From Myxococcus xanthus (GTDB lineage Bacteria; Myxococcota; Myxococcia; Myxococcales; Myxococcaceae): 64,000 bases of DNA. The DNA is taken from the NCBI RefSeq assembly GCF_900106535.1, contig NZ_FNOH01000006.1:62001-126000 (forward strand). The letters are read 5' to 3'. This document shows positions 6,387 to 37,900 of this stretch, one piece after another. The position numbers were made by a program, and so were the translations under genes. How positions within the stretch are numbered: the stretch's first letter is position 1; every line of letters begins with the position of its first letter. A model generated the notes under the pieces. The model did not search any database and was not told the DNA's origin. It was given only the letters and a program-made list of their open reading frames with translations.

Positions 6387-6424
6387 GGCCCCTCCGTCTA
6401 TCACCCCCGGGAAGGCCGCGCGCG

Positions 6425-8080
6425 CTACTCCCGCGTCACCGCCTGGAGCACCACTTCACGCCGCCGCTCCAGCAGCCGCAGCGCCAGGGGAAGCACCCCG
6501 CGATACAGCGCCACGTTCAACGCGGCGGCCAGGAGAATCATCGCCGCCGTGTGCCACGTGGGCCCTTCCTTGCCCGCCAGCTTGAGCGCCCAGCCGAAGG
6601 GCATGCAGCCCGCGCTGGCCGCGAGGATGCCCAGCATGGAGGCCGTCAGCGGAACCTTGTCCCGCCGCTTGAGGCTCGCGTGGAACTTCACCGGGAAGTA
6701 CAGCGACAGGAAGTTGCCCGCGGCCAGCAGCATGGGCACCACGGCGCCCACGGCCGCCATGGCGCACAGCATGTCCAGCCCGGTGCCGAAGCCGAAGTAC
6801 ACCCGGTAGAAGAGCGCCACCATTGCCGCCATCCCGAGCGCCGCCGCGCCCTGCACTTGATTCTTCGCGCGCAGCACGTCCGCCAGGTCCAGGGGCGCCG
6901 CCAGGAAGGCCGCGAAGCCCTGTCCGTCGTACGCGAAGGTGTTCTGGGAGAACGTGGACGCAATCACCACCGCGCCGTAGATGCACAGGCCCCCCATCAG
7001 CCACGCATCCGCCGAGCCGCCCAGGAGGAACACGAACAAGTCCCTTCCGGACAGCAGCTTCAGCAGGATGGCCAGGATGAAGGGCACCGACGCCAGCAGC
7101 CGCGCGCGCGGGTTGCGCCACAGGTCCAGGGCCTCGCGCGTCACCAGCGTGGTGTAGCGCGTCCGCGTGGTGGCGAACGGGTTGCTATCCCCCGAGTCCT
7201 TGCTCGAGCCCCCCGCGCGGCCCGCCTGCCGGTGAAAGCGCATCAGCAGCGCGTAGGCCACCGCCATGCCCACGCCCGCGAAGAAGAGCAGCGCCGCCGC
7301 CTCGAACATGGCCGCCCGGGGCCGGTGCCAGGCGAGCTGCGCCAGCGCGTCTCCGAAGAGCCCCGGGGGCACGCGGCCCAGCGCCACCGCCGCGTTGATG
7401 ATGAGGGACATGTCCAGCGCGTCCACGCCCGCCTCGCCCACCGCCGTCAGCCACGAGGTGTCGATGGGCGGAATGAACGACGCGCCCAGGAGGAAGAGCG
7501 CCAGTCCTCCGCCCATGATTTCCGCGCTGTGCTTCGCCCGCAGCACGTTGATGACGGCGTACAGCGCCACCCGGCTCCAGGCCGCGCACAGGAGCGCGAA
7601 GAGGACGTAGAGGACCACCGCCAGCCACGGCATGTACAGCACATAGACGGACGCGAAGCCCAGCGCGGCCCCGGTGAGCGGCGCGTAGAAGACGAGCGCG
7701 CGCGGCTCGAAGAGGCTGGCCACCGTCGACGCGATGAGCAGCCGGAAGGGGGAGATGGGGAAGGCGGCGTAGCGGCTCAGCTCGGAGTGGTCATCCACAC
7801 CCGCGGACAACAGCGGCCACGTCACCCACACCGAGAAGGTGACGAAGCACAGCAGGTTGAGGATGAAGTAGGGCCACACGTCGCTCTCCGCGATGGGCCG
7901 CAGCCGCATCAGCGCGAAGAACGTCAGGCCCAGGAAGAGGCCCGGCGCGCTCGACGCGGCGAATGCGGCCACCGCCAGCAGCCGGCTGCGTCCGGGGCCC
8001 TGATTCAACCCGATGTCGAAGCGCAGCCCCCACAGCAGCCACAGGTGCCGGAAGAAGCCGGGCACGGCGGGGCGGCTCAT
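6425..8080 (-). CDS. ABC transporter permease (multi-span exporter type)
   Basis: The protein has 551 residues and many hydrophobic segments, about ten to twelve by eye. The first loops include LLAVAAFAASSAPGLFLGLTFF and YFILNLLCFVTFSVWVTWPLL. The ATG overlaps the stop of the ATPase gene (ATGA at 8077-8080), so the two subunits are translationally coupled, as expected for an ABC-2-like transporter. Between membrane groups is a hydrophilic Gly/Ser-rich loop (GRAGGSSKDSGDSNPF). The protein has no ATPase motifs of its own. It is likely to be the membrane subunit of an exporter in the inner membrane; the cargo cannot be told from the sequence. Confidence 0.85.
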   Translation of the reverse strand: MSRPAVPGFFRHLWLLWGLRFDIGLNQGPGRSRLLAVAAFAASSAPGLFLGLTFFALMRLRPIAESDVWPYFILNLLCFVTFSVWVTWPLLSAGVDDHSELSRYAAFPISPFRLLIASTVASLFEPRALVFYAPLTGAALGFASVYVLYMPWLAVVLYVLFALLCAAWSRVALYAVINVLRAKHSAEIMGGGLALFLLGASFIPPIDTSWLTAVGEAGVDALDMSLIINAAVALGRVPPGLFGDALAQLAWHRPRAAMFEAAALLFFAGVGMAVAYALLMRFHRQAGRAGGSSKDSGDSNPFATTRTRYTTLVTREALDLWRNPRARLLASVPFILAILLKLLSGRDLFVFLLGGSADAWLMGGLCIYGAVVIASTFSQNTFAYDGQGFAAFLAAPLDLADVLRAKNQVQGAAALGMAAMVALFYRVYFGFGTGLDMLCAMAAVGAVVPMLLAAGNFLSLYFPVKFHASLKRRDKVPLTASMLGILAASAGCMPFGWALKLAGKEGPTWHTAAMILLAAALNVALYRGVLPLALRLLERRREVVLQAVTRE

Positions 8081-21063: not shown

Positions 21064-21080
21064 CTAAAAGCGCGTTCAGG
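21064..21080 (+). promoter_or_regulatory. LexA-type SOS box upstream of recA
   Basis: CTAAAAGCGCGTTCAGG fits, at all 17 positions, the degenerate LexA-binding motif that I recall for Myxococcus (CTRHAMRYBYGTTCAGS). It lies 40 bases before the recA start codon, where an operator should overlap the promoter. The motif is from memory and needs checking against the literature. Confidence 0.65.
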
Positions 21081-21119
21081 TGAGCCGGGGTGGCTCGCCA
21101 ATACAAGGAGCTACGAGCA

Positions 21120-22211
21120 ATGGCCGTGAATCAGGAGAAGGAAAAGGCGATCGAACTGGCGATGTCCGCGGTGGAGCGCCAGTTCGGCAAGGGGTCCATC
21201 ATGCGGCTCGGCAACGACGAGCCAATGATGCGAGACGTTCAGGCCATCCCGACGGGCTCCATCTCGCTGGACATCGCCCTGGGCGTGGGTGGCGTGCCCA
21301 AGGGCCGCATCATCGAAATCTTCGGGCCGGAGTCGTCCGGTAAGACGACGCTGTGTCTCCACATCGTCGCCGAAGCGCAGAAGCGCGGCGGCATCTGCGG
21401 CTACGTGGACGCGGAGCACGCGCTGGACGTGGGCTACGCGCGCAAGCTGGGCGTGCGCACCGATGACCTGCTGCTGAGCCAGCCGGACACCGGTGAGCAG
21501 GCGCTGGAAATCGCGGAGATGCTGGTGCGCTCGGGCGCCATCGACGTGCTGGTGGTGGACTCGGTGGCCGCGCTCGTGCCGAAGGCGGAGCTCGAGGGTG
21601 AGATGGGCGACGCGCACATGGGTGTGCAGGCCCGCCTCATGAGCCAGGCGCTCCGCAAGCTGACGGGCACCATCGCCAAGAGCCAGACGTGCGTCATCTT
21701 CATCAACCAGATTCGCATGAAGATTGGCGTGATGTTCGGCAACCCGGAGACGACGACGGGCGGTAACGCGCTGAAGTTCTACGCGTCGCAGCGCCTGGAC
21801 ATCCGCCGCATCGGCGCCATCAAGAATGGCGACAACGTGGTGGGCAGCCGCACCCGCGTGAAGGTGGTGAAGAACAAGGTCGCGCCGCCGTTCAAGGAAG
21901 TCGAGTTCGACATCATGTACGGCACGGGCATCTCCCGTGAGGGCGACCTCATCGACCTCGCCTCCAACGAGAACATCGTGGAGAAGAGCGGCAGCTGGTT
22001 CTCCTTCAATGGTGAGCGCATCGGCCAGGGCCGGGAGAACGTGAAGGAGTACCTGCGCGAGCACCCGGAGATCGCGAAGGACATCGAAGGCCGCGTGCTG
22101 GAGAAGTACGGCATCGGCAAGTCGGGTGCGCCCGTCGCCGCGGCGCCGGACGAGTCCGCGCCGGCCGAAGGTGGCAGCGAGAAGCGCGGCCGTGTGAAGG
22201 CCGTGAAGTAG
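21120..22211 (+). CDS. recA: RecA recombinase
   Basis: I start at ATG 21120, which has AAGGAG upstream, giving 363 residues and the standard N-terminus [20 protein letters not shown]. Walker A is GPESSGKTT, Walker B-like [14 protein letters not shown], and the L2 region [20 protein letters not shown] is intact. The C-terminal tail is Ala/Pro/Glu-rich then basic ([10 protein letters not shown]), not the acidic tail of E. coli RecA. RecA forms the strand-exchange filament and stimulates LexA self-cleavage. Myxobacteria often carry two recA genes; from this window I cannot say which copy this is. Confidence 0.98.
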
Positions 22212-22296: not shown

Positions 22297-22449
22297 GCTT
22301 GGTGTCCGGCGTCCTTCGCGTGGGTTCGCACCGGGCGTGGGTGACACGATGCGTTGTCGTTTCATTCCGTGGGGATGTTTCCTGCTGAGTGGAAGAGCGC
22401 TCTAGACTCGCGGCCCTGTCTCCTAACCCGCGCAACCCGGAGTCCCGCC

Positions 22450-24600
22450 TTGTTCGATAGATTCAAACGCCGCAGTTTCCTCCAGGCCGTCGTCGCCGTT
22501 GCCGCGACCACTGCGTTCGGATGTTCCGACGACGAGACGACGTCGGATGCTGGCGAGAAGTACTTCCCGCAGTCCGTGTGCTCGGGTGACCCGCGTCCGG
22601 ACAGCGTGGTGTTGTGGGTGCGGGCGGTGGACCCGGACAACGCGGGGGCGAACACGCAGGTGCGGCTGGAGGTGTCCACCAGCGAGTCGTTCAGCAGCGT
22701 GGTGCTGGACCAGCAGTTCACCGCGCAGGCGCAGTTCGACCATGCGTTGAAGGTGAAGGTCACCAACCTGTCGGCGCGCACGACGTACTACTACCGCTTC
22801 ACCATCGACGCGAACGGTCAGAAGTACTCCACGGTGACGGGCCGCACCCGCACCGCGCCGGCCGCGGGCGACGACGTGCCGGTGAAGTTCGTCTTCGCCA
22901 GCTGCCAGGACTACATCGGTCGTTACTACAACGCGTGGCAGCACCTGCTGCAGCTCAACGAGGACCTCGACTTCGTCGTGTTCCTGGGCGACTACGTCTA
23001 CGAGACGACGGGCGACGCGTCGTTCCAGTCCGTGGACGGACGCGGCATCGTCTTCAGCGAGCCCGAGAAGGCGCTCCGCCAGGGCACGGGCCTGACGGCG
23101 TTCTACGCGGCCAACTCGCTGTCCAACTACCGCGACCTCTACAAGACCCTGCGCACGGATAAGGTCATCCAGCAGGTGCACGAGCGCTACCCGTTCGTCA
23201 TCACGTGGGATGACCACGAGTTCTCCGACGACTGCTGGGGCGACGTCGCCACGTACACAGACGAGCGCACCAACGAGAAGCAGACCGAGCGCCGCCGCAA
23301 CGCGGAGCAGGCCTTCTTCGAGTACATCCCCATGGACCACGGCGCGAGCGACGCGGGCGCCATCGACATCAACGCCGTGGTGGCCCAGCCGACGCGCATC
23401 TACCGCGACTTCGAGTTCGGCCGGAACCTGAAGCTGCTGGTGACGGACACGCGCACGTACCGCCCGGACCACCTCATCCCCGAGGACGCGTACCCGGGCA
23501 AGGTGGCGGTGCCGGCCGAGCAGCTGGCCCTGGTGCTGTCGTCGCTGCCGGAGGCCACGCAGGCGCAGTTGCAGTCCGACATGTTCGCCTACGTGGACAT
23601 CGACGCGGCGGAGCTGGCGCCCTACAAGCAGATCCTCACGGGCGTGTACGTGCAGCAGGCCGTCGCCGCCGGGCTCACGTCGGGAGAGGCGACCGAGAAG
23701 GCGGGCGCCTGGGTCTCCGGTGGGCTGTCGCTGTTCTACGTCAACCAGGTGCTCAACGCCGTCAACCAGGCGCGTGAGGCGGCGGGCGATTCGGCCATTC
23801 CGCTCATCCCCGCGACGGGCGCGCCGCGCGGTCTGGCCTATGCGCACATGGGCAAGACGGGCCTCTTCGGCATCCAGGGCTCGCGCTACGTCGTGGTGAA
23901 GCCCATCTTCGACCTGTACGCGGCCATCAAGTACATGGGCACCGCGGGAGCCTCGGAGGGCATCTTCGGCAACGAGCAGCAGGCGTGGCTCCAGGAGTCC
24001 GTGCAGGCGGACAACGCGTGGAAGATCATCGTCTCCTCGATTTCGCTCACCTCCATGGTGTTCAAGCTGAGCGAGAAGGCGGACGTCCCGGACCCCACGC
24101 TGCGCCAGGACTTCTACTTCAACGTGGACCAGTGGGACGGCTTCCCCACGAAGAAGCAGGAGTTCTTGAAGTTCCTGCGCGACAGCCAGGTGAAGAACGC
24201 GCTGTTCATCTCCGGCGACATCCACGCGTCCTTCGCGTCCGTGGAGTCCGGCATCCCCGCGCTGACGACGCCGGCCATCTCCTCCGGCTCCATCAAGGAG
24301 CTGGCGGGCCTGGCCGTCATCGGCGCGGGCTTCTCCACCGGCAGCACGGTGTACCGGTACATCGTGACGGAGCTGGACAAGTCGCTGAAGGAAGCGCACC
24401 CCGGCATGGCGTTCGTGGACGGTGATGCCCACGGCTTCGTGGTGCTGGAGGTCGGCGGCACGGAGGCGAAGGCGGCCTTCCACCTCATCCCGAGCACGGA
24501 AATCGCCAAGGACTACTCGCTGCGCCAGCCCTCCGAGCTGACGGCGAAGTTCACCCGCCGCGACTTCATCATCAAGGACGGCACCATCACCTCCGCCTGA
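22450..24600 (+). CDS. PhoD-family alkaline phosphatase/phosphodiesterase, Tat-exported
   Basis: I choose TTG 22450: CGGAG lies seven bases upstream and the N-terminus becomes LFDRFKRRSFLQAVVAVAAT, a twin-arginine signal (RRSFLQ) followed by AFGC. This gives 716 residues. The N-terminal beta domain is followed by the metallophosphatase core. Metal ligands are likely in FASCQDY, FLGDYVYET, TWDDHEFSDDCW and FISGDIHASF; the WDDHE motif is typical of PhoD. A long insert (about residues 350-480) lies between the DTRTYR strand and the final core. It should release phosphate from diesters outside the inner membrane. The cysteine after AFG could make it a Tat-dependent lipoprotein, though the lipobox is imperfect. 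Confidence 0.9.
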   Translation: MFDRFKRRSFLQAVVAVAATTAFGCSDDETTSDAGEKYFPQSVCSGDPRPDSVVLWVRAVDPDNAGANTQVRLEVSTSESFSSVVLDQQFTAQAQFDHALKVKVTNLSARTTYYYRFTIDANGQKYSTVTGRTRTAPAAGDDVPVKFVFASCQDYIGRYYNAWQHLLQLNEDLDFVVFLGDYVYETTGDASFQSVDGRGIVFSEPEKALRQGTGLTAFYAANSLSNYRDLYKTLRTDKVIQQVHERYPFVITWDDHEFSDDCWGDVATYTDERTNEKQTERRRNAEQAFFEYIPMDHGASDAGAIDINAVVAQPTRIYRDFEFGRNLKLLVTDTRTYRPDHLIPEDAYPGKVAVPAEQLALVLSSLPEATQAQLQSDMFAYVDIDAAELAPYKQILTGVYVQQAVAAGLTSGEATEKAGAWVSGGLSLFYVNQVLNAVNQAREAAGDSAIPLIPATGAPRGLAYAHMGKTGLFGIQGSRYVVVKPIFDLYAAIKYMGTAGASEGIFGNEQQAWLQESVQADNAWKIIVSSISLTSMVFKLSEKADVPDPTLRQDFYFNVDQWDGFPTKKQEFLKFLRDSQVKNALFISGDIHASFASVESGIPALTTPAISSGSIKELAGLAVIGAGFSTGSTVYRYIVTELDKSLKEAHPGMAFVDGDAHGFVVLEVGGTEAKAAFHLIPSTEIAKDYSLRQPSELTAKFTRRDFIIKDGTITSA

Positions 24601-27783: not shown

Positions 27784-28908
27784 TCACTTCGCGTCGATGG
27801 GGAAGGGACGGACTTCCCCCGCGAGCACCTGGTTGCGCGCCAGCAGCTTCGCGAACCGGTCCGTCCCGTTGCGTGTGTCGAAGCGGTTCGCGATGTCCCG
27901 GGCCTGCCCCAGCGTCCAGGCATGCAGGGCCCGGACGTCGTAGCCGCCATCCGCCTGGTGATTGGGGAACGTCTTGGGCAGCCGCAGGCTCACCACGTCC
28001 CTGTCTCCCGCGGCCAGCACCCGCTCCAGCAGGAAGGCGGCGGCGGCGTAGAAGGTGAAGCGGTCCCGGTAGCTCGGGTGGTCCAGCGCCCAGCCCAGGT
28101 GCTTCTCCAGCAGCGTCAGCCCGCGCGCCAGGTTGTCCGTCAGGGCGAGGAACTCCATGTGCTCGCCCACGGTGGAGAGGAACTCGCGGTTCTTCGTCAC
28201 CATGGCGTAGCCGCGGCGGTGGATTTCGCGCGCGTGCTCCAGCTCACCCAGCTTGAACAGCGGGTAGAGCACCGTGCCCAGCGTCAGGTGGGGAATCTCC
28301 GCGCAGGACTTGCGGCCGTCCAGGATGGGCTTCGCCTTGCGCAGCACCTGCTGCCATTCGCCCTTGTCGGCGTGGTGGTCCAGTTCGTCGTCCAGCTCGC
28401 ACACGCGGCAGTCGGTGAGGTGGTCGCGGCGCGTCTCCAGCCACGCGTTCCACAGCCGCTCCACTTCCTCGGCGGCGTCACCCATCTCCCGCGCGGCCTG
28501 GTAGCGCATCTTCAGCACCGCGCGCACCCCGGAGTCCGTGGCCCTGAAGCACTGCTCCACGTCGTCCAGCGCGTCCAGAATCTGCTTGCGGGTGATGTGA
28601 GGGAACTCCTTGATGCGCCCCACCACCCACTTCTGCTTCCAGAACATCTCCTCCGGGTCGAAGCGCTTCGGGTCCTTCTTCTGCTGTCCCCGGCACCACG
28701 CGAAGGCCACCAGCGCCTTGTCCGGGAAGCCGCCGAAGGTCGCCGCGTCGATGAGGGCATCTCGCATCCGGTAGCCCATGCCCACGTCCTTGTGCGTGTC
28801 CGCCAGGCGCACCGCCTCTTCCAGGAGCCGCACCTTGCTCTCGCCTTCAGCCAGGCCGTCCGCCTGAGCGAAGAGCGACTCCACCTGCTCGCGCCAGTCA
28901 CCACTCAT
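27784..28908 (-). CDS. Helical-repeat (TPR-like) protein coupled to the HSP90-family gene
   Basis: The protein has 374 residues. Its ATG overlaps the TGA of the HSP90-family gene (ATGA at 28905-28908 on this strand), so translation is coupled. The sequence is almost all amphipathic helix pairs, spaced as in tetratricopeptide repeats. Examples are ESLFAQADGLAEGESKVRLL followed by RLADTHKDVGMGYRMRD, FPDKALVAFAWCRGQQKKDP, and LGELEHAREIHRRGYAMV. I do not see a strict TPR consensus. There is no signal peptide. In eukaryotes HSP90 co-chaperones use TPR domains, so a co-chaperone or client-adaptor role is a reasonable inference, not shown. Confidence 0.75.
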   Translation of the reverse strand: MSGDWREQVESLFAQADGLAEGESKVRLLEEAVRLADTHKDVGMGYRMRDALIDAATFGGFPDKALVAFAWCRGQQKKDPKRFDPEEMFWKQKWVVGRIKEFPHITRKQILDALDDVEQCFRATDSGVRAVLKMRYQAAREMGDAAEEVERLWNAWLETRRDHLTDCRVCELDDELDHHADKGEWQQVLRKAKPILDGRKSCAEIPHLTLGTVLYPLFKLGELEHAREIHRRGYAMVTKNREFLSTVGEHMEFLALTDNLARGLTLLEKHLGWALDHPSYRDRFTFYAAAAFLLERVLAAGDRDVVSLRLPKTFPNHQADGGYDVRALHAWTLGQARDIANRFDTRNGTDRFAKLLARNQVLAGEVRPFPIDAK

Positions 28909-30764
28909 CAGTGCAGCCCCCGGGGACCCGCGCCGCCGCTGCCTTCGCCGCCGCGCCCGCCATCCCCGCCCAGTTGTGCGGAGATGAGGCCCAACAGGCC
29001 CTGGTTCAGCAGGACCATCTCCTGTGCGTTCAACGGATGGTGTCCCAAGAGCAGTGCTTGCACGTAGAGCATCTCCACCGACAGCTTCAGCATGTCCCGG
29101 TCCGCCACGGCGGCCAGCCGCCGCACCACCGGGTTGTGGAGGTTGAAGCACAACTGCGCCGGCTCGCTGCCCGAGGCCGCCATGACGCTGTCCAGCACGC
29201 CGGCGTACAGGTCATCCGACTCCTCGCGAGCCCGCTCGGCGTCGCGCCGGAACGCGCCCTCCGCGTCCGAGCTGTAGAGCGTGGGCACTTCCGCCGGGTA
29301 GAACTTCTTCACCACCGCGCCGCAGCGGAACGGCGCCAGCACGTTCTCCGCCATGCGCAGCAGCGGGAAGGTGGCCTCGCGCTCGTCCAGGGTGAGCTCA
29401 TCGAAGCTCTGCGGCAGGTCCGCGGAGGAGAAGGGCTCCACCTGCACGTCCGGCACCGCGTGCGGCAGCTTCTCCAGCAGCGACGTGTCGTGCGTGTACG
29501 CCGCGTTGATGATGCACAGGCCTTGGGCACCGGCCACCTGGGCAATCTGCCGGAAGCCGTCCAACGTGGACGTGTAGCGCACCACGGGGTGCGCGCGCCG
29601 GTAGTCCGCCAGCGTCATCATCCCCATCGACGTCTCGAAGGGCAGCCAGTGGATGATGAGGCGGTAGAAGTCATCGTCATCCAGCGCCAGCGCCTTCACG
29701 CTCAGCCCGTGCAGGGCAATCAGCCGCTGGAGCGCGCGTGGGTCCTCACGCGCCAGCTCCATCAGGTAGCCGCGCAGGGACTGCCCCAGGGACTCGCGCG
29801 CCGCGGCGAGCGCGTCGTCCTCGTAGAAGGACTCCCGGCTGGCGGTGGGCCGCAGCGCGTTGGCGTTCACCACGCACTTCACGAAGAAGGCCCACTCCGG
29901 CAGCAGGTTCTCCGCGCTCTCCGACAGCAGCATGTGCTTGAGGTACACGCGGTGCTTCTGGCGTGAGTTGAAGTGCGGCGACGCGGGCAGCACGTAGGCC
30001 ACCCCGTCCACGTCTCCCGCGGTGGAGCGCAGGGGGATGCAGTCGACGAAGTCCGTGTCGAACAGCTCGCGCCCGTAGGCGAGCAGCGCCTTGCGCCGCT
30101 CCGAGGCGCTGTCGTACTCGCGGCGCCAGGGGGCGCCGGAGGTGTCCAGCCGCTCGGTGCCCTGGTCCGTGGTGAGGTGGATGGGAAAGGGCAGCAGGCC
30201 GCCGTAGTGGCTGGCGAGGTTTCGCAGCCGCGTGGCGGTGAACCAATGCGCCATGTCCGGGCGGGCCACCAGGAACACCTGGGTGCCGGGCTGGGCGAGC
30301 GGGTGCTCGGAGGGCCGCACGGCGTACGTGCCGTCATGCCGGCCCCGCCACTCCAACGTGCGCCCGTCGCCGCGTGCCGAGCGCGTCACCACCAGCAGCT
30401 CGTCGCACACCATGAAGCAGGACAGCAGGCCGATACCGAACTGGCCGATGAAGTCGTTGCGGCGGGCCTCCAGGGCCTCGCGCTTGGAGGACTCACCGAT
30501 GGTGGCCAGGAAGCGGTGGATTTCGTCCTCGGTCAGCCCCACGCCGTCGTCGGTGAAGAGCAGGGTGGGCGGGCTGCCGTCCTGCTTCTCCATCAGCTCC
30601 AGCCGGACGGTGCCCGCGTGGCCGGGCTCCAGGAGCTGGCGGGCGCGGATGGCATCGGTCGCGTTCTGGAGCAGCTCGCGTACGTAGACGCCCGGGGAGC
30701 TGTACAGGTGATGTGACAGGAGGTCGATGACCCCGCGGAGGCTGACTTGAAATCGGTGGTCCAC
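28908..30764 (-). CDS. htpG: HSP90-family molecular chaperone (HtpG-like)
   Basis: The protein has 618 residues, close to E. coli HtpG (624). The GHKL ATPase pocket is intact: YVRELLQNATDAIRA with E30, N34 and D37, TDDGVGLTEDE near residue 73, and GQFGIGLLS at 107-115. The middle and C-terminal domains follow at the expected spacing. The sequence looks nearer to the actinobacterial 'HSP90 family' branch than to proteobacterial HtpG; that placement is a judgement by eye. No C-terminal MEEVD is present. It is cytoplasmic, and the next gene encodes a helical-repeat protein. Confidence 0.93.
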   Translation of the reverse strand: MDHRFQVSLRGVIDLLSHHLYSSPGVYVRELLQNATDAIRARQLLEPGHAGTVRLELMEKQDGSPPTLLFTDDGVGLTEDEIHRFLATIGESSKREALEARRNDFIGQFGIGLLSCFMVCDELLVVTRSARGDGRTLEWRGRHDGTYAVRPSEHPLAQPGTQVFLVARPDMAHWFTATRLRNLASHYGGLLPFPIHLTTDQGTERLDTSGAPWRREYDSASERRKALLAYGRELFDTDFVDCIPLRSTAGDVDGVAYVLPASPHFNSRQKHRVYLKHMLLSESAENLLPEWAFFVKCVVNANALRPTASRESFYEDDALAAARESLGQSLRGYLMELAREDPRALQRLIALHGLSVKALALDDDDFYRLIIHWLPFETSMGMMTLADYRRAHPVVRYTSTLDGFRQIAQVAGAQGLCIINAAYTHDTSLLEKLPHAVPDVQVEPFSSADLPQSFDELTLDEREATFPLLRMAENVLAPFRCGAVVKKFYPAEVPTLYSSDAEGAFRRDAERAREESDDLYAGVLDSVMAASGSEPAQLCFNLHNPVVRRLAAVADRDMLKLSVEMLYVQALLLGHHPLNAQEMVLLNQGLLGLISAQLGGDGGRGGEGSGGAGPRGLH

Positions 30765-31790: not shown

Positions 31791-31887
31791 GCACCGGGCG
31801 CGGATGGTTGGGTCCGGTAGAAGTGGCGGTTCTACGCCCGCTGACTTCCGGGCCTTGACCCTGTCCCGTGGCCGAGTGGAAACCAGA

Positions 31888-33333
31888 ATGCCCCTGGGTT
31901 ACATCCCGGTCCTCGCGCCGCGCATGGGCCTTGCCTGGCGCTCCAGGGGTGTTCCGGTGTTGGACTTCACCAAGGCGGGGTGGCTCTTGCCACTCCTGAC
32001 GGAGACGGTCGCCTTCGAGGCGGGCGCGCCGGCTCCGTCCGCGCCGCCGCTGGGCTCCGGGCGGGCCCGGGCTCGCGCGTACCTGCGGCGGACGCTGCGC
32101 GCCAGTGGCCTGCTGTACGGCACGCCCGCGGACGCACCCTCCGCGGCGGACGTGGCGCAGCCCACCGAGCTCCAGGCGCGCGTGCTGGAGGACCAGCTCT
32201 TCCGCGCCGTGGTGCGGACCCTGGCGCTGATGGCGCTGGAATTGGGCCGGCTCGTGGGGGCTCCAGCGGCCGTTCGCACCGAGCATCTCCTGGTCCTGTT
32301 CGCGGTGCTCACCGGAGAGCTGGAGCTGGCGGAGGCGGTGGACGCGGCGATTGCCTCGGGGCGTCCGGTGTCCCGGCGGCTGACGGCGAAGGTGGAAGCG
32401 TCGCTGGTGAAGCGCTCGCCCGTGCTGGCGGGGGACCCGGTCTACGGGCTGGTGTTGCACAACGGCGCGCAGTACGCGGACGCGCAGCTGTTCTGCCGGC
32501 AGGCCATCGACTACTTCTCGCGCGGCACGCTGCACCGCGAGCGGGCGCAGCGGCGGCTGGACTTCGCGGCGCGGCAGAAGGCGCTGCTGGTGGATGTGCT
32601 GACGGGGCTTGCGTGTGTGGACCGGGTGCCGGGCCTGCCCGCGCGCCGCGCCATCCTGCGGCAGGTGGAGTCCCTGCGGCTGCCGGCGGCGATGACGTCC
32701 GAGCTCAAGGCCGCGGTGAAGCAGTCCTTCGCCCGCCGCCGCCCGGTGCAGGACGTGGTGCGCCAGGTGCGCAGCGTGGACGTGCGCCACTTCCTGCTGG
32801 AGCAGACGTTGCTGGCGGCGCTGGTGGATGGCCGCAAGACGCGGCGTGAGCGCGTCTTCATCCGCGAGCTGGCGCAGGCGCTCCAGGTCCCGGACGCGGA
32901 GCTGCACCGGCTGGAGCTGGAGATGGCGGAGTTCTACGCCCGCCACCGCGCCATCGTGGACGTCTTCACCGTGTCGGACGCCGCGGGCGCCATGGGCGAG
33001 GACCTGGTGGCCGGCATCCAGGAGGCGCTGGAGAAGAACTTCTACCGGCTGATGCAGGAGGTCCGCGAGACGGGCGACCTGGCGGTGCTGCTGACGAAGG
33101 CGGCCCGGCGTCAGGCGCTCACGGGCGACGAGCGCCGGCGCATGCGCGCGCAACTCGTCGATGTGGCCAAGGCGATTCCCGCGCTGGCCATCTTCGCGGC
33201 GCCCGGCGGCATCCTGCTGCTCGCGGCGTTGGGGAAGGTGCTGCCCTTCAGCCTGCTGCCCAGCGCCTTCCAGGAGGCCGCGCCCGCCGAGGAGGACTTC
33301 GAGGGCGTGGGCCCGGAGCGAGAGGCCGGCTGA
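31888..33333 (+). CDS. TerB-like and LETM1-like membrane-associated protein
   Basis: The protein has 481 residues from ATG 31888; the ribosome site is weak and an upstream start is possible. It is mostly helical. Near residues 290-350 is a TerB-like segment (LLEQTLLAALVDGRKTRRER, then VFIRELAQALQVPDAELHRL). The last 80 residues (LVDVAKAIPALAIFAAPGGI, then LLLAALGKVLPFSLLPSAF) match the pattern of the LETM1 membrane segment, with its polar helix, Pro-containing hydrophobic stretch and FPxxLPSxF-like end. LETM1 proteins act in cation homeostasis of mitochondria; bacterial relatives are poorly understood. It lies between a hydrolase and a FUSC transporter. Confidence 0.65.
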   Translation: MPLGYIPVLAPRMGLAWRSRGVPVLDFTKAGWLLPLLTETVAFEAGAPAPSAPPLGSGRARARAYLRRTLRASGLLYGTPADAPSAADVAQPTELQARVLEDQLFRAVVRTLALMALELGRLVGAPAAVRTEHLLVLFAVLTGELELAEAVDAAIASGRPVSRRLTAKVEASLVKRSPVLAGDPVYGLVLHNGAQYADAQLFCRQAIDYFSRGTLHRERAQRRLDFAARQKALLVDVLTGLACVDRVPGLPARRAILRQVESLRLPAAMTSELKAAVKQSFARRRPVQDVVRQVRSVDVRHFLLEQTLLAALVDGRKTRRERVFIRELAQALQVPDAELHRLELEMAEFYARHRAIVDVFTVSDAAGAMGEDLVAGIQEALEKNFYRLMQEVRETGDLAVLLTKAARRQALTGDERRRMRAQLVDVAKAIPALAIFAAPGGILLLAALGKVLPFSLLPSAFQEAAPAEEDFEGVGPEREAG

Positions 33334-33488: not shown

Positions 33489-35666
33489 ATGAGTCCGCTC
33501 CGTCATCACCTCCAGGCCTTCCTCCGCGTGGAGCCGGGCCGTCCCGCGTATGGCGCCGGGGTCCGCGCCGCGCTTGCGGTGGGTGGGCCCATGGCCGTCG
33601 CGGCCCTGCTGCACCTTCCCGCGGCCACGTGGGTCGGTATGGCCGCGCTCTTCGTTGCCCTGGTGGACCGGGGCGGGCCCTACTGGGACCGCGCGCTCAC
33701 CATGGGCGCCATGACGCTCCTGGGCTCCGTGGTGGGCCTGGCCGCGGCGCTGCACCTGCCCGCGTGGGCCGCCGTCATCGCCACGCTGTTCTGGGTGACG
33801 GCGTGTGGCTTCGCCCGCTCGTATGGGGACACGCCCGGGTTGATGGGCGTGGTGCTCGCCAACTACTTCGTGGTGTCGCTCGCGCTTCCCGCCAACGACG
33901 TGGCTGACGCATTGCTGCGCTCCGGCTTGTTCCTGGTGGGCGGCGCGTGGGCCATGTTCCTCGCGCTGATGCTGTGGCCGCTGGTGCCCTACCGGCCCGC
34001 GCGCCTGGCCATCGCGCGGTGTTACGACGCGCTGGCGGACCATGCGGAAGAGGTGGGGCGCTGGCCGCTCGAAGGGGGGGCGTCCGCCGCCGCGGGTGTC
34101 CTGCCGGAGGCGCCCTGGCAGGCCCGCATGCGTCAGCTCATCGAACAAGCGCGCACCGTGCTGGCCTCCACGCGCATGGGCCGGGCGGGGGAGAGCGGCC
34201 GGGGCGAACAGCTGCTGGTGCTGGTCGAAGGCGCGGATTCGATGATGGTGACGCTCATCGCGCTGACGGAGATGCTGGAGGTGGCGCCCGCCGAGCCCCG
34301 CTATCACGCGCTCCGAGCGGAGGTGCAGCGCGCGCTGGCGGAGCTGACCGCGGACCTGCGCCGCGTCCGGTTTGCTCTGGAGAAGGGGACGGAGGTGAGC
34401 GCCCAGTCGGTCTGGAACGCCGAGCGGGTGAAGCGGGCCCTGGATGCGCTGGACACGGCGGGCGGCGTGCCGGAGCCGGTGCGCGCCGGCTATCAATACG
34501 TGCACACGCTGCTGGACCGCCTGCGGGACTATTCCCACGCGACGGTGGAGGTGGCGGCGCGGCTGGAGGGCCGCGCGCCCGTGCCGGACGCCCTGGCGCT
34601 GCCCGCGCGGCGGGTGGAGGCGGCGCCGCGGCAGGCCCTCCTGGAGCCGCTGCGGGAGAATCTCAACGTCCGCTCCGTCATCTTCCGTCACGCGCTGCGG
34701 CTGGGCGTCGCGGCCGCGCTGGCCACCGCGCTCGTGGGGGCGCTGGGATTGAATCACGGCTACTGGGTCATCATCACCGTCACCGTCGTCCTGCAGCCCT
34801 ACGCAGGCCTCACGTTCCAGCGGAGCCTGCAGCGCATCGCGGGCACGCTGCTGGGCGCGGCGCTGGCCGCGGGTCTGGTGGCGTTGGTGAGGGACCCGGC
34901 CATCATCCTGCTGGCCATCGGGGGGCTGTTCGCGGTGGCGATGAGCATCCAGCCGCTCAGCCTGTCCGCGTTCCAGGTGCTGCTGACTCCGGCCCTGGTG
35001 CTGCTGGCGGAACTCCAGAGCGGGGACTGGGAGCTGGCCGGGGTGCGCATCGTCAACACGCTGCTGGGAGGGCTGATTGCGCTGACGGTGACGCGGCTCT
35101 TGTGGCCCAGCCCGGAGCACCTGCGTCTGCCGGAGCAGGTGGCCTTCGCGTTGCGCGCGGACCGCGAATACCTGATGGCGGTGGCCGCCGCGCACTCGGA
35201 CTCGGAGCCCGCGGTGCGCGAGGCCCGGCGGAAGATAGGCCTGGCGCTGCTGGCGGCGGAGGCGTCCTTCCAGCGGCTGCTGAGTGAGTGGACCGGGCCC
35301 GCCAAGGACCTGGAGCCGGTGATGGCGCTGCTGGTCTACGCGCGGCGCTTCACGTCGGCGGTGACGACGCTGGCCGCCAGTCGCGCGGACCCGGCGTCCC
35401 CCCGGGAACTCTCCGAGGTGGTGCGCTTCGCCGGGGGCGTGTTGGACGAACTGGCGGCGGCCATGGAGCAGCAACGCCGGCCCGCGCCCATGCCCGCCAC
35501 GGTTCCGGCGGGTGGGGCGGATGCGCTGTCGCGCGCGCACGTGGAGCGGCTCGTGCGACAGCTCACCGTGCTGCACCACGCGGCGGAGCGTGTCCCGCCG
35601 CTGCGGCTCAAGGAGGGCGTCAGGGCCGGTCGAGCGTCGTCACCAGGCGCCGCAGGTCCTCGTTGA
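33489..35666 (+). CDS. FUSC-family membrane protein (aromatic-acid-exporter-like)
   Basis: The protein has 725 residues in the order hydrophobic half, soluble helical part, hydrophobic half, soluble tail. The first membrane block (about 25-165) includes LTMGAMTLLGSVVGLAAALH. A soluble region of about 220 residues follows. A second block starts at SVIFRHALRLGVAAALATAL (about residue 396) and contains YWVIITVTVVLQPYAGLTF, the typical FUSC motif. This architecture is shared with YccS/YhfK and AaeB exporters. It should export organic acids across the inner membrane, but no AaeA-like partner is nearby. Its last 47 bases overlap the convergent HEAT-repeat gene. Confidence 0.83.
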   Translation: MSPLRHHLQAFLRVEPGRPAYGAGVRAALAVGGPMAVAALLHLPAATWVGMAALFVALVDRGGPYWDRALTMGAMTLLGSVVGLAAALHLPAWAAVIATLFWVTACGFARSYGDTPGLMGVVLANYFVVSLALPANDVADALLRSGLFLVGGAWAMFLALMLWPLVPYRPARLAIARCYDALADHAEEVGRWPLEGGASAAAGVLPEAPWQARMRQLIEQARTVLASTRMGRAGESGRGEQLLVLVEGADSMMVTLIALTEMLEVAPAEPRYHALRAEVQRALAELTADLRRVRFALEKGTEVSAQSVWNAERVKRALDALDTAGGVPEPVRAGYQYVHTLLDRLRDYSHATVEVAARLEGRAPVPDALALPARRVEAAPRQALLEPLRENLNVRSVIFRHALRLGVAAALATALVGALGLNHGYWVIITVTVVLQPYAGLTFQRSLQRIAGTLLGAALAAGLVALVRDPAIILLAIGGLFAVAMSIQPLSLSAFQVLLTPALVLLAELQSGDWELAGVRIVNTLLGGLIALTVTRLLWPSPEHLRLPEQVAFALRADREYLMAVAAAHSDSEPAVREARRKIGLALLAAEASFQRLLSEWTGPAKDLEPVMALLVYARRFTSAVTTLAASRADPASPRELSEVVRFAGGVLDELAAAMEQQRRPAPMPATVPAGGADALSRAHVERLVRQLTVLHHAAERVPPLRLKEGVRAGRASSPGAAGPR

Positions 35667-37215
35667 CGCTGACGAACCGGGTGTTGCCCTGCTCGTCCGC
35701 GAGCTGCTTTCGCATCGTGGGCAGGGAGGCCTCGCGCAGCTTCTTCGCGACGTCCTGCGAGCCTTCCACCAGCCAGCCCACCGCGAGGACGAGCGCGAGA
35801 CGGGCCTCGGTGTCGCGCTCTCCCAGTCGCGAGGCCAGCGCGCCCGCGTGCTCGGCCGCGCCCGAACGGCCGACCTCCAGCGCCGCGCGCTCCAGCATTC
35901 GCGGCTCCGCCTTCTCCATGCGCTGCACCCAGCAGCCCGCGTTGCCCCCGCACGCCTGCGCGGCCTCCAGCAGCTTGGACTGGCCCGCAATCTGGTCCGC
36001 GCGCTGCTTGCCCAGCGCGGCCGCGTCATCGCAGCCTTCGTCCTCCGCCTGCTTGCAGTCCGCCGCCGTCCGCGCCGGCTCGGCCGCGGCGAGCTTCTGC
36101 AACAAGGGCAGCTCGCGCGCGTCGCCCAGCATGGCGATGCCCTTCACCGCCAACTCGCGCGCGTACCAGTCTCCGGTGCCCGCGGCCTTCTCCAGCGCGG
36201 GCAGTGCGTCGCGTCCGCCCAGGCGCACCAGGGCGCTCACGTAGGAATCCCTCACGGTGGCGTCCGTCTCCGACACGAGCCCGGCCAGTGGCTTCACCGC
36301 CTCCTGTGCGCGCATGCGCGCCAGCGCGTCCGCGGCCTGCATCCGCACCAGCGCCTGAATCTGCGGGTCCGTGTTGGTGAAGGCCAGTTGCTTCAACAGC
36401 GTGGCCACCGCCCGCTTCTCCCGCAGGTCGCCCAGCACCGTCGCCGCCTTCATCGCGTAGCTGGCCGGGTTGACGCCGTTCGACCGCGCCCACTTCAGCA
36501 GGTCCGCGTCCTGGCCCTCCAACGCCTGAAGCAGCGCGTCCGCCGCGGGCGCGCCCAGTTGGTACAGCGCGAAGGAGCTCTCCACGTAGAAGGACTTGCC
36601 CTTGCGCTCCTTGGTCAGCATCCGCACCAGCGCGGGCGCCGCGCGGCCGTCACCGATGTCACCCAGGGCCTCAATGGCCTTCTTGTTGAGGAAGGGCTCC
36701 ACGGTGTCGTCCGTGGCCAGGGTGATGAGCGGCTCCACCGCTTCCTTCGCCTTCATGTCGCCCAGCACCTGCACCGCCTCGATGCGCGTGTAGTTGTCCT
36801 TCGCGCGCAGCAGCGGCACCAGCGCGGGGATGGCGCGGCGGTCACCAATGGCCCCCAGCGTCGCGACAATGGCCTTGTTCGCCAACTGCGCGGGCATGTC
36901 GCCCGCCGCCGGGTCCAGGGCCTTCGTCAGCGGCTCCACCGAAGAGGCATGCTTCAAGTCTCCCAACGCGCGGGCCAGCGCGGCGCGCACCTCCGGCTTG
37001 CGCTCGGTGCCGAGCTGCCCGTGGAGCATGGGCAGGAAACGCTCGTCCATCTTCCCGGACGAACGCATGGCCTCCACCATGCGGATGCGGTCCTCCGCTC
37101 TGCGGCTCTGCTGAATGCCTGACTCCCAGTACTCCGGGGTCGCTGGGTCCCCCTTGCACCCAGCCAACATCAGGAACGAGAGCGCAATACACAACGCGGT
37201 CAGAGAGCGGGTCAT
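35620..37215 (-). CDS. HEAT-repeat lipoprotein
   Basis: The start ATG 37215 follows GGAGACCGC, giving 531 residues. The N-terminus is a lipoprotein signal (MTRSLTALCIALSFLMLAGC) with the lipobox at LAGC. From about residue 40 the protein is a row of HEAT repeats with the usual Gly-Asp turn: LARALGDLKHASSVEPLTKAL, VATLGAIGDRRAIPALVPLL, AVQVLGDMKAKEAVEPLITL, AIEALGDIGDGRAAPALVRM. These make a curved scaffold for protein contact. The mature protein should be anchored in the outer or inner membrane facing the periplasm. No enzyme domain is present. Its stop lies inside the end of the convergent FUSC gene. Confidence 0.88.
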   Translation of the reverse strand: MTRSLTALCIALSFLMLAGCKGDPATPEYWESGIQQSRRAEDRIRMVEAMRSSGKMDERFLPMLHGQLGTERKPEVRAALARALGDLKHASSVEPLTKALDPAAGDMPAQLANKAIVATLGAIGDRRAIPALVPLLRAKDNYTRIEAVQVLGDMKAKEAVEPLITLATDDTVEPFLNKKAIEALGDIGDGRAAPALVRMLTKERKGKSFYVESSFALYQLGAPAADALLQALEGQDADLLKWARSNGVNPASYAMKAATVLGDLREKRAVATLLKQLAFTNTDPQIQALVRMQAADALARMRAQEAVKPLAGLVSETDATVRDSYVSALVRLGGRDALPALEKAAGTGDWYARELAVKGIAMLGDARELPLLQKLAAAEPARTAADCKQAEDEGCDDAAALGKQRADQIAGQSKLLEAAQACGGNAGCWVQRMEKAEPRMLERAALEVGRSGAAEHAGALASRLGERDTEARLALVLAVGWLVEGSQDVAKKLREASLPTMRKQLADEQGNTRFVSVNEDLRRLVTTLDRP

Positions 37216-37318
37216 GCGGTCTCCATTGCGTCTGCGAGGTTGTCCTGTCTTCCGTGTAAACCTCGCGCGAGGAAGGAAGCAAACCGCCCCAGGCACCTGG
37301 GGTACGCTGGTCAACGAC

Positions 37319-37900
37319 ATGTCCGATGGCAATCAAAAGACGGTGCGCCCGAGCCACGTCCGCCGGACGTACATCCTGGACCGGCCTTTCCAGCTCAAAT
37401 ACATCCTGCTGTTGGCGGGGATTGGTGCCGGCAGCATCCTCGTGTTCGGACTGTTGGCGCACCGCGTCCACGTGTCGTCCACGGCCCTGGGACTGGACGG
37501 CGGGCAGACGCTGCTGTGGCTGACGGCGGTGGGCGCGCTGGGCACGGCGGTGGCGATGGGTCTCTTCGGCCTCGTCTTCACCCACCGGGTGGCGGGCCCC
37601 GTCCACGTCATGAGCCTGTATGTGGCGGCGCTGGCGGCCGGCCGCTATCCCCGGATGCGGCCGCTGCGGCGCGGGGACGAGCTCAAGCAGTTCTTCGACC
37701 GCTTCACCGAAGCGGTGACGCGCATCCGGGAGCGTGAGGCGGATGAGGCCTACGCGCTGGAGACCGTGCTGGAGGCCCTGCGACCGGTGGCCACCACGCC
37801 CGAGGCCCTGGAGGCGCTGGGCACCCTGAGCGCCCTGCACACGCGCAAACGTCAGGCGGTGGACACTCCCACCGGGAGCACCTTCAAGTCCGTGGCCTGA
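37319..37900 (+). CDS. Small membrane protein with a HAMP-like segment
   Basis: The protein has 193 residues from ATG 37319; the ribosome site is weak. Two transmembrane helices are visible, about 24-44 (LKYILLLAGIGAGSILVFGL) and 62-84 (LWLTAVGALGTAVAMGLFGL). After the second is a HAMP-like stretch (THRVAGPVHVMSLYVAALAA, with the conserved Pro), then GRYPRMRPLRRGDELKQFFDRF and a helical tail. It has no kinase, cyclase or methyl-acceptor domain, so it would be a signalling stub or a membrane scaffold. It lies 29 bases before fmt and diverges from the HEAT lipoprotein gene. Confidence 0.72.
   Translation: MSDGNQKTVRPSHVRRTYILDRPFQLKYILLLAGIGAGSILVFGLLAHRVHVSSTALGLDGGQTLLWLTAVGALGTAVAMGLFGLVFTHRVAGPVHVMSLYVAALAAGRYPRMRPLRRGDELKQFFDRFTEAVTRIREREADEAYALETVLEALRPVATTPEALEALGTLSALHTRKRQAVDTPTGSTFKSVA

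Follow-up and report, generated by a model that had tools for sequence, protein, structure and literature searches.

The window, the whole stretch of 64,000 nucleotides of Myxococcus xanthus DNA analysed here, carries on its plus strand a gene (positions 31957 to 33333, stop codon included) for a protein of 458 aa that joins a TerB-like part to a LETM1-type C-terminal tail. The GTG start at 31957 was set by an alignment of homologs, for which 42 representatives with less than 75% identity were taken and one of them (L023, a 733-aa frame) was removed, leaving a set of 41. The alignment begins at this GTG, the residues encoded upstream remain unaligned, and other genomes have an ATG at the equivalent position (for example L016, whose protein begins with MDLGKAGWLSS). 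The starts at 31804 and at 31888, the latter being where the initial annotation had begun the gene, were dropped because the homolog alignment breaks before 31957. Direct reading of the sequence suggests that AGGGG at 31945 to 31949 (plus strand) is the ribosome-binding site of the GTG. Both stretches quoted in the initial annotation, VAKAIPALAIFAAPGGILLL and AALGKVLPFSLLPSAF, lie inside the frame from 31804 to 33333 (plus strand). A search of the 9.26-Mb genome with the tail profile led to one place only, and the gene is thus in single copy; a candidate for a second LETM1 gene, a weak match on C8 (E 0.153), was rejected on this ground. A tentative assignment of the locus tags MXAN_1445 to MXAN_1449 was also dropped, because MXAN_1448 is exbB1 in a published report.

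The annotation had also pointed to a neighbouring FUSC-type membrane transporter. A gene for a FUSC-type membrane protein is indeed present (33489 to 35666, plus strand; FUSC_2, 109.2 bits), but it carries no weight as a functional partner, since its cluster is confined to 9 of the 71 neighbourhoods compared (70 loci and the window, which is one of the nine), all of them Myxococcus/Citreicoccus-type loci, and the deep neighbour is recA. Divergent from the LETM1-tail gene is a gene for an Hsp90-like ATPase of about 618 aa (28908 to 30764, minus strand; HATPase_c_3, 36.1 bits; HSP90, 31 bits), whose cluster occurs in 33/71 neighbourhoods. It is adjoined in 29/71 by a gene (27784 to 29151, minus strand) with no Pfam match at E ≤ 0.001, and the cluster of a HEAT-repeat lipoprotein-like gene (35620 to 37332, minus strand; HEAT_2, 152 bits) was found in 24/71. 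One of the loci (L037), titled Comamonas sp. KCTC 72670, has a Myxococcus-type gene and neighbourhood (87% identity) and is probably mislabelled.

Homology of the C-terminal tail to the LETM1 membrane segment

The Pfam profile LETM1_RBD matched residues 388 to 446 (33118 to 33294, plus strand) through its positions 1 to 58 of 229, which are the membrane-segment part only. With the whole protein the score was 22.1 bits (E 1.2e-4), just below the curated cut-off of 25.3, and with the last 100 residues alone it was 25.9 bits, just above. The same profile was matched at E ≤ 0.01 by 39 of the 41 diverse homologs, the best at 2.9e-8, and in the homolog alignment no part of the protein is better conserved than the tail. 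We also aligned the tail alignment (A2) by hhalign with what we take to be a LETM1 segment, which Pfam scores at 113 bits. The resulting alignment had a probability of 95.4%; it spans 62 columns and has a single gap of one residue, which lies before the LPSxF end. Its score was 49.8, whereas the best of 100 shuffles, carried out within three blocks so that helix and flanks each kept their composition, reached 22.0. From the shuffle test, the matches among the homologs and the score of the tail alone we conclude that the tail and the LETM1 membrane segment are homologous; the LETM1-like C-terminus proposed in the initial annotation is borne out. Searched against the PDB, the tail profile matched nothing better than weak MazG-like entries (E 0.069 upward) over the helix preceding the membrane segment, which we took as chance.

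The predicted membrane segment and the transport glutamate

Hydropathy, the alignment columns and hhalign place a predicted membrane segment at residues 405 to 428 (33169 to 33240, plus strand), which includes Pro408 and Pro416. Hydropathy peaks at 2.22 over residues 407 to 425; the next window of the protein reaches 1.52 and none other exceeds 1.6, whereas 20 of the 41 homologs have another window above 1.6. Pro408, Pro416 and Gly418 are invariant in all 41 homologs, and Asp402 is Asp in 39 of them; Asp402, Pro408 and Pro416 align to LETM1 without a gap. An inner-membrane location with one spanning helix is predicted. Two observations count against parts of this picture. The 30 residues before the segment carry a charge of +4 and the residues after it −6, which fits an orientation with the body inside, but the charge rule supports this orientation in only 25/41 homologs. 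The structural model of a tail-only protein was weak (pLDDT 71.2, pTM 0.45) with broken helices, so that a membrane-spanning helix stays a prediction.

Residue 419, which is Ile here, corresponds to the position of the LETM1 transport glutamate. It is acidic in none of the 41 homologs, being M in 12, A in 9, L in 7, V in 6, I in 4, F in 2 and T in 1. The protein ends 20 residues past LPSAF, 10 to 61 residues follow residue 432 among the 41 homologs, and the LETM1 ribosome-binding domain is absent downstream of the membrane segment. Shao et al. (PMC5037442) report that Glu221 in the membrane segment of mouse LETM1 is needed for Ca2+ transport and that D204 is not. A second study describes the two conserved prolines and notes that the glutamate is missing from LETMD1, for which a different substrate or function is suggested (PMC7761412). 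The initial annotation had cited the control of K+/H+ or Ca2+/H+ exchange by mitochondrial LETM1; with the glutamate replaced by non-acidic residues in 41/41 homologs and the ribosome-binding domain missing, an ion-exchanger reading of the tail is not supported.

A TerB-like body before the tail

The TerB-like part precedes the LETM1-like part, as the initial annotation had stated. In the profile search that it had suggested, Pfam TerB matched residues 231 to 319 (32647 to 32913, plus strand) with 22.3 bits (E 1.7e-4), a score that, like that of LETM1_RBD, is slightly under the cut-off (24.4). DUF533 matched the region of residues 231 to 320 at E 0.009, also below its cut-off. At E ≤ 0.01, TerB was matched by 15/41 homologs and DUF533 by 20/41. 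An AlphaFold2 model built from the 41 sequences (mean pLDDT 83.6) was compared with known structures by VIA-align, and the helical body at residues 148 to 336 (32398 to 32964, plus strand) aligned to the solved TerB-like protein 2ou3, which came first with 149 of 160 residues, an rmsd of 4.5 and a Z of 9.2, the next row having 6.2; this Z is less than the approximately 13 asked for helical bundles, and such a lower value may reflect a common helical arrangement. Foldseek found no match in the PDB for the model of the protein at E ≤ 0.001, and the only PDB match of the sequence profile was again 2ou3, weak at E 0.72. The D-G-x5-E pattern is largely kept, Asp291 being Asp in 31/41 and Glu298 being Glu in 33/41 homologs. 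Each of the Pfam, profile and fold matches is weak, but taken together, with 2ou3 at the top of both the sequence-profile and the fold comparison, they speak for residues 148 to 336 having a TerB-like fold. The N-terminal 147 residues had no family match.

Distribution and tail-only proteins

In a family-level search the protein was present in 55/59 genomes. The nearest NCBI model is NF040639, ‘LETM1-related biofilm-associated protein’, which was matched at E ≤ 1e-5 in 146 of 193 genomes of the phylum, with one match per genome. Its cut-off of 250 bits was reached in 0/193, and the window protein scored 104.2 bits. These counts mark the gene as an ancient one that the phylum has passed on vertically, and, judged by these scores, it is related to the NCBI equivalog NF040639 yet stands outside it. 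We presume that NF040639 may be at home in Bacteroidota. Our literature searches found no report on a biofilm role of a LETM1-related protein and none on LETM1 with TerB in bacteria. Among the matches listed, a search on prokaryotic LETM1 homologs gave no report of a TerB-LETM1 family, and one on LETM1 in myxobacteria or deltaproteobacteria gave none that mentions LETM1. Searches on LETM1 in Flavobacterium and on bacterial TerB domains with tellurite returned nothing relevant, the latter yielding phage work.

In one genus, each of the four genomes (G011, G029, G045 and G052) encodes a protein of 117 to 122 aa without the TerB body, which starts like MKLGRAARFSSLL and continues into the LETM1 tail; the position of the gene next to the Hsp90-like gene is unchanged. 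Among the three closest of these genomes dN/dS was about 0.29 to 0.36 (dN 0.045 to 0.054, dS 0.126 to 0.187), and against the fourth it was 0.48 to 0.62. A tail without the body also occurs in two genomes of other families, as a 199-aa version whose start overlaps the recA stop (L104, G157) and as a version of about 131 aa located elsewhere (L101, G134). Judged by these tail-only forms, evolution can dispense with the body but not with the tail.

Linkage to recA

A recA gene (21090 to 22211, plus strand), recognized by a RecA family match in its own genome, lies 9.6 to 9.9 kb upstream of the LETM1-tail gene. It is preceded by a LexA (SOS) box, CTAAAAGCGCGTTCAGG (21064 to 21080, plus strand), which matches the M. 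xanthus SOS consensus exactly. A scan of the window at up to one mismatch gave this single match, against 0.08 expected, and thus none elsewhere, including the region before the LETM1-tail gene. The recA2 box given in PMC9705874 contains these same 17 bases, and the gene is therefore recA2 and not recA1. M. xanthus recA2 has its own promoter, and the recA genes stand outside operons, according to PMC7029660, which agrees with the separation seen in the window. A PhoD-like phosphatase gene (22354 to 24600, plus strand; 223.4 bits) now lies between recA2 and the genes downstream.

Outside the family of the window, no gene cluster reached further than RecA (18/71 neighbourhoods). In 12 loci the gene starts 15 to 217 bp behind recA on the same strand, with starts assigned in this analysis and that of L096 uncertain. 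The order has 42 gene-positive genomes that do not belong to the family, and among the matches listed at least 31 of these carry the gene immediately after recA and in the same orientation. As to the remaining 11, recA is on another contig in four (G139, G177, G179 and G184), and for seven (G134, G146, G169, G182, G186, G188 and G189) no recA was among the matches listed; G146 is adjacent by its own locus (L106, gap 48), and in G134 the gene stands behind another gene (L101). The adjacency spans 6 of the 7 gene-bearing non-Myxococcaceae families of the order. In L104 the recA stop and the ATG start of the LETM1-tail gene overlap as ATGA (6422 to 6425).

Within the family, the gene was always downstream of recA on the same strand in 36 genomes, at 0.3 to 70 kb; these genomes were picked for having both matches listed on one contig, and 36/36 is not a rate. 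Because the gene is constantly downstream and on the same strand over such variable distances, the pair looks ancestral, probably separated later by insertions. The two genes are not neighbours in the other classes of the phylum; although they share a contig, hundreds of kb separate them in G077 and about 80 kb in G098. Ahead of recA in the outgroup loci, boxes sought at 1 to 5 mismatches fit the consensus less closely and prove little. We also considered whether the gene merely fills the place of recX, and rejected this: RecX was found in 9/15 genomes, in none of them at the place of the gene by coordinates.

Discussion

The comparisons above indicate that a conserved family joining a TerB-like body to a LETM1-type segment is real. 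Our preferred reading, to which we would give a little less than an even chance, is that the protein is a membrane scaffold anchored by its tail and bearing TerB, formed around a LETM1 segment that does not transport, and ancestrally expressed with recA. The protein would face the cytoplasm, with its C-terminus held in the inner membrane. The TerB-like body (about 148 to 336) and the helical N-terminal part would pass, through a long conserved helix, into the LETM1-type segment kinked by two prolines. This segment would serve as an oligomerising or membrane-shaping anchor and not as a cation/H+ exchanger, and TerB might be a sensing or binding head. That an anchor is more probable than an exchanger is indicated by the retention of the Asp, the two Pro residues, the Leu-Leu and the LPSxF end with loss of the acidic transport residue. 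The old place behind a LexA-controlled recA suggests that the protein may formerly have served a response to DNA damage or envelope stress as its membrane arm, and could later have been uncoupled from recA in Myxococcus. Against this stand the separate promoter of M. xanthus recA2, the lack of an SOS box ahead of the LETM1-tail gene and the distance from recA in other classes. In vitro, LETM1 forms oligomers and bends membranes, but the residues critical for bending belong to the domain that the protein described here lacks, and not to the segment that the two have in common (PMC7058069).

How far recA enters the function is a separate question. One could envision that the protein is a RecA partner, or an SOS membrane protein, bringing RecA-dependent repair or signalling to the membrane. 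The adjacency in most families of the order, the short gaps, the ATGA overlap and the finding that the recA of the window is the LexA-controlled copy all fit, but conserved synteny does not imply shared function, Myxococcus has lost the adjacency and other classes do not show it, and Pfam finds no DNA-binding or RecA-binding domain in the 458-aa protein; we think that this is somewhat unlikely. A related proposal makes a LETM1-type module devoid of the ion-exchange residue an ancestral recA partner of myxobacteria, in that a translationally coupled recA-LETM1 unit with a tail of about 100 residues, whether or not a TerB head is present, would link the DNA-damage response to the inner membrane; this we consider unlikely. 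Equally unlikely in our estimate is that the protein belongs to envelope-stress or tellurite resistance of the TerB type, with the LETM1 tail merely an ordinary membrane anchor. The TerB and DUF533 matches among the homologs, and that of a model of the co-chaperone DjlA in 2/41, speak for it. The TerB score of the window protein, however, is below the cut-off, and a mere anchor should not be the best conserved part, nor the one that several lineages have kept by itself, as the tail is.

The two remaining explanations concern the tail itself. If it were a bacterial LETM1-type cation/H+ exchanger, the tail would oligomerise into a pore regulated by TerB. In favour of this are the genuine homology of the tail to the membrane segment of LETM1, with Asp-Pro-Pro equally spaced in both, and the report that reconstituted LETM1 acts as a Ca2+/H+ antiporter through oligomers of one segment (PMC5037442). 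The exchanger is nevertheless improbable, given the uniformly non-acidic residue 419, the missing remainder of the LETM1 domain and the precedent of LETMD1 cited above. Lastly, the likeness to LETM1 might be convergent, any proline-kinked hydrophobic helix after a basic helix being able to produce it. The whole-protein Pfam score under the cut-off and the match to only a quarter of the profile would fit such a case, but no shuffle came near the observed score and nearly all homologs match, so that convergence is very hard to credit.

The role of LETM1 is disputed, and the protein is regarded as a transporter, a ribosome receptor or a membrane shaper. A bacterial family that keeps the membrane segment but lacks both the glutamate and the ribosome-binding domain, and that sometimes goes down to about 120 residues, offers a natural dissection of the LETM1 segment alone, and the recA adjacency is a testable hint at a stress role. 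M. xanthus being a standard laboratory species, the gene is accessible to deletion. High-resolution structures of LETM1 are not available according to a 2026 review (PMC13311838).

Several known systems invite comparison. With TerB (PF05099), DUF533/YebE (PF04391) and 2ou3 the protein appears to share the fold and the D-G-x5-E pattern, but it scores below the Pfam cut-offs, and the neighbourhoods compared hold no ter gene cluster, their named members being recA, fmt, the Hsp90-like gene and others. NF040639 has the same order of a TerB-like part and a LETM1-type C-terminal segment; residues 264 to 440 align with positions 218 to 392 of its 396 (E 1e-29) and all 41 homologs match, whereas the N-terminal half is unmatched and the score stays far from the cut-off. 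LETMD1 (SLC55A3), which is eukaryotic and is likened here by its published description alone, is likewise a LETM1 relative without the transport glutamate, having N151 there (PMC7761412). Mitochondrial LETM1/Mdm38 (PF07766, SLC55) differs in possessing that glutamate and the ribosome-binding domain, in having its soluble body after the membrane segment and not before it, and in its leucine zipper and EF-hand, which have no Pfam match here. What the tail shares with LETM1/Mdm38 is the basic helix, the Asp, two prolines eight residues apart, the hydrophobic segment and the LPSxF end, all in matching register.
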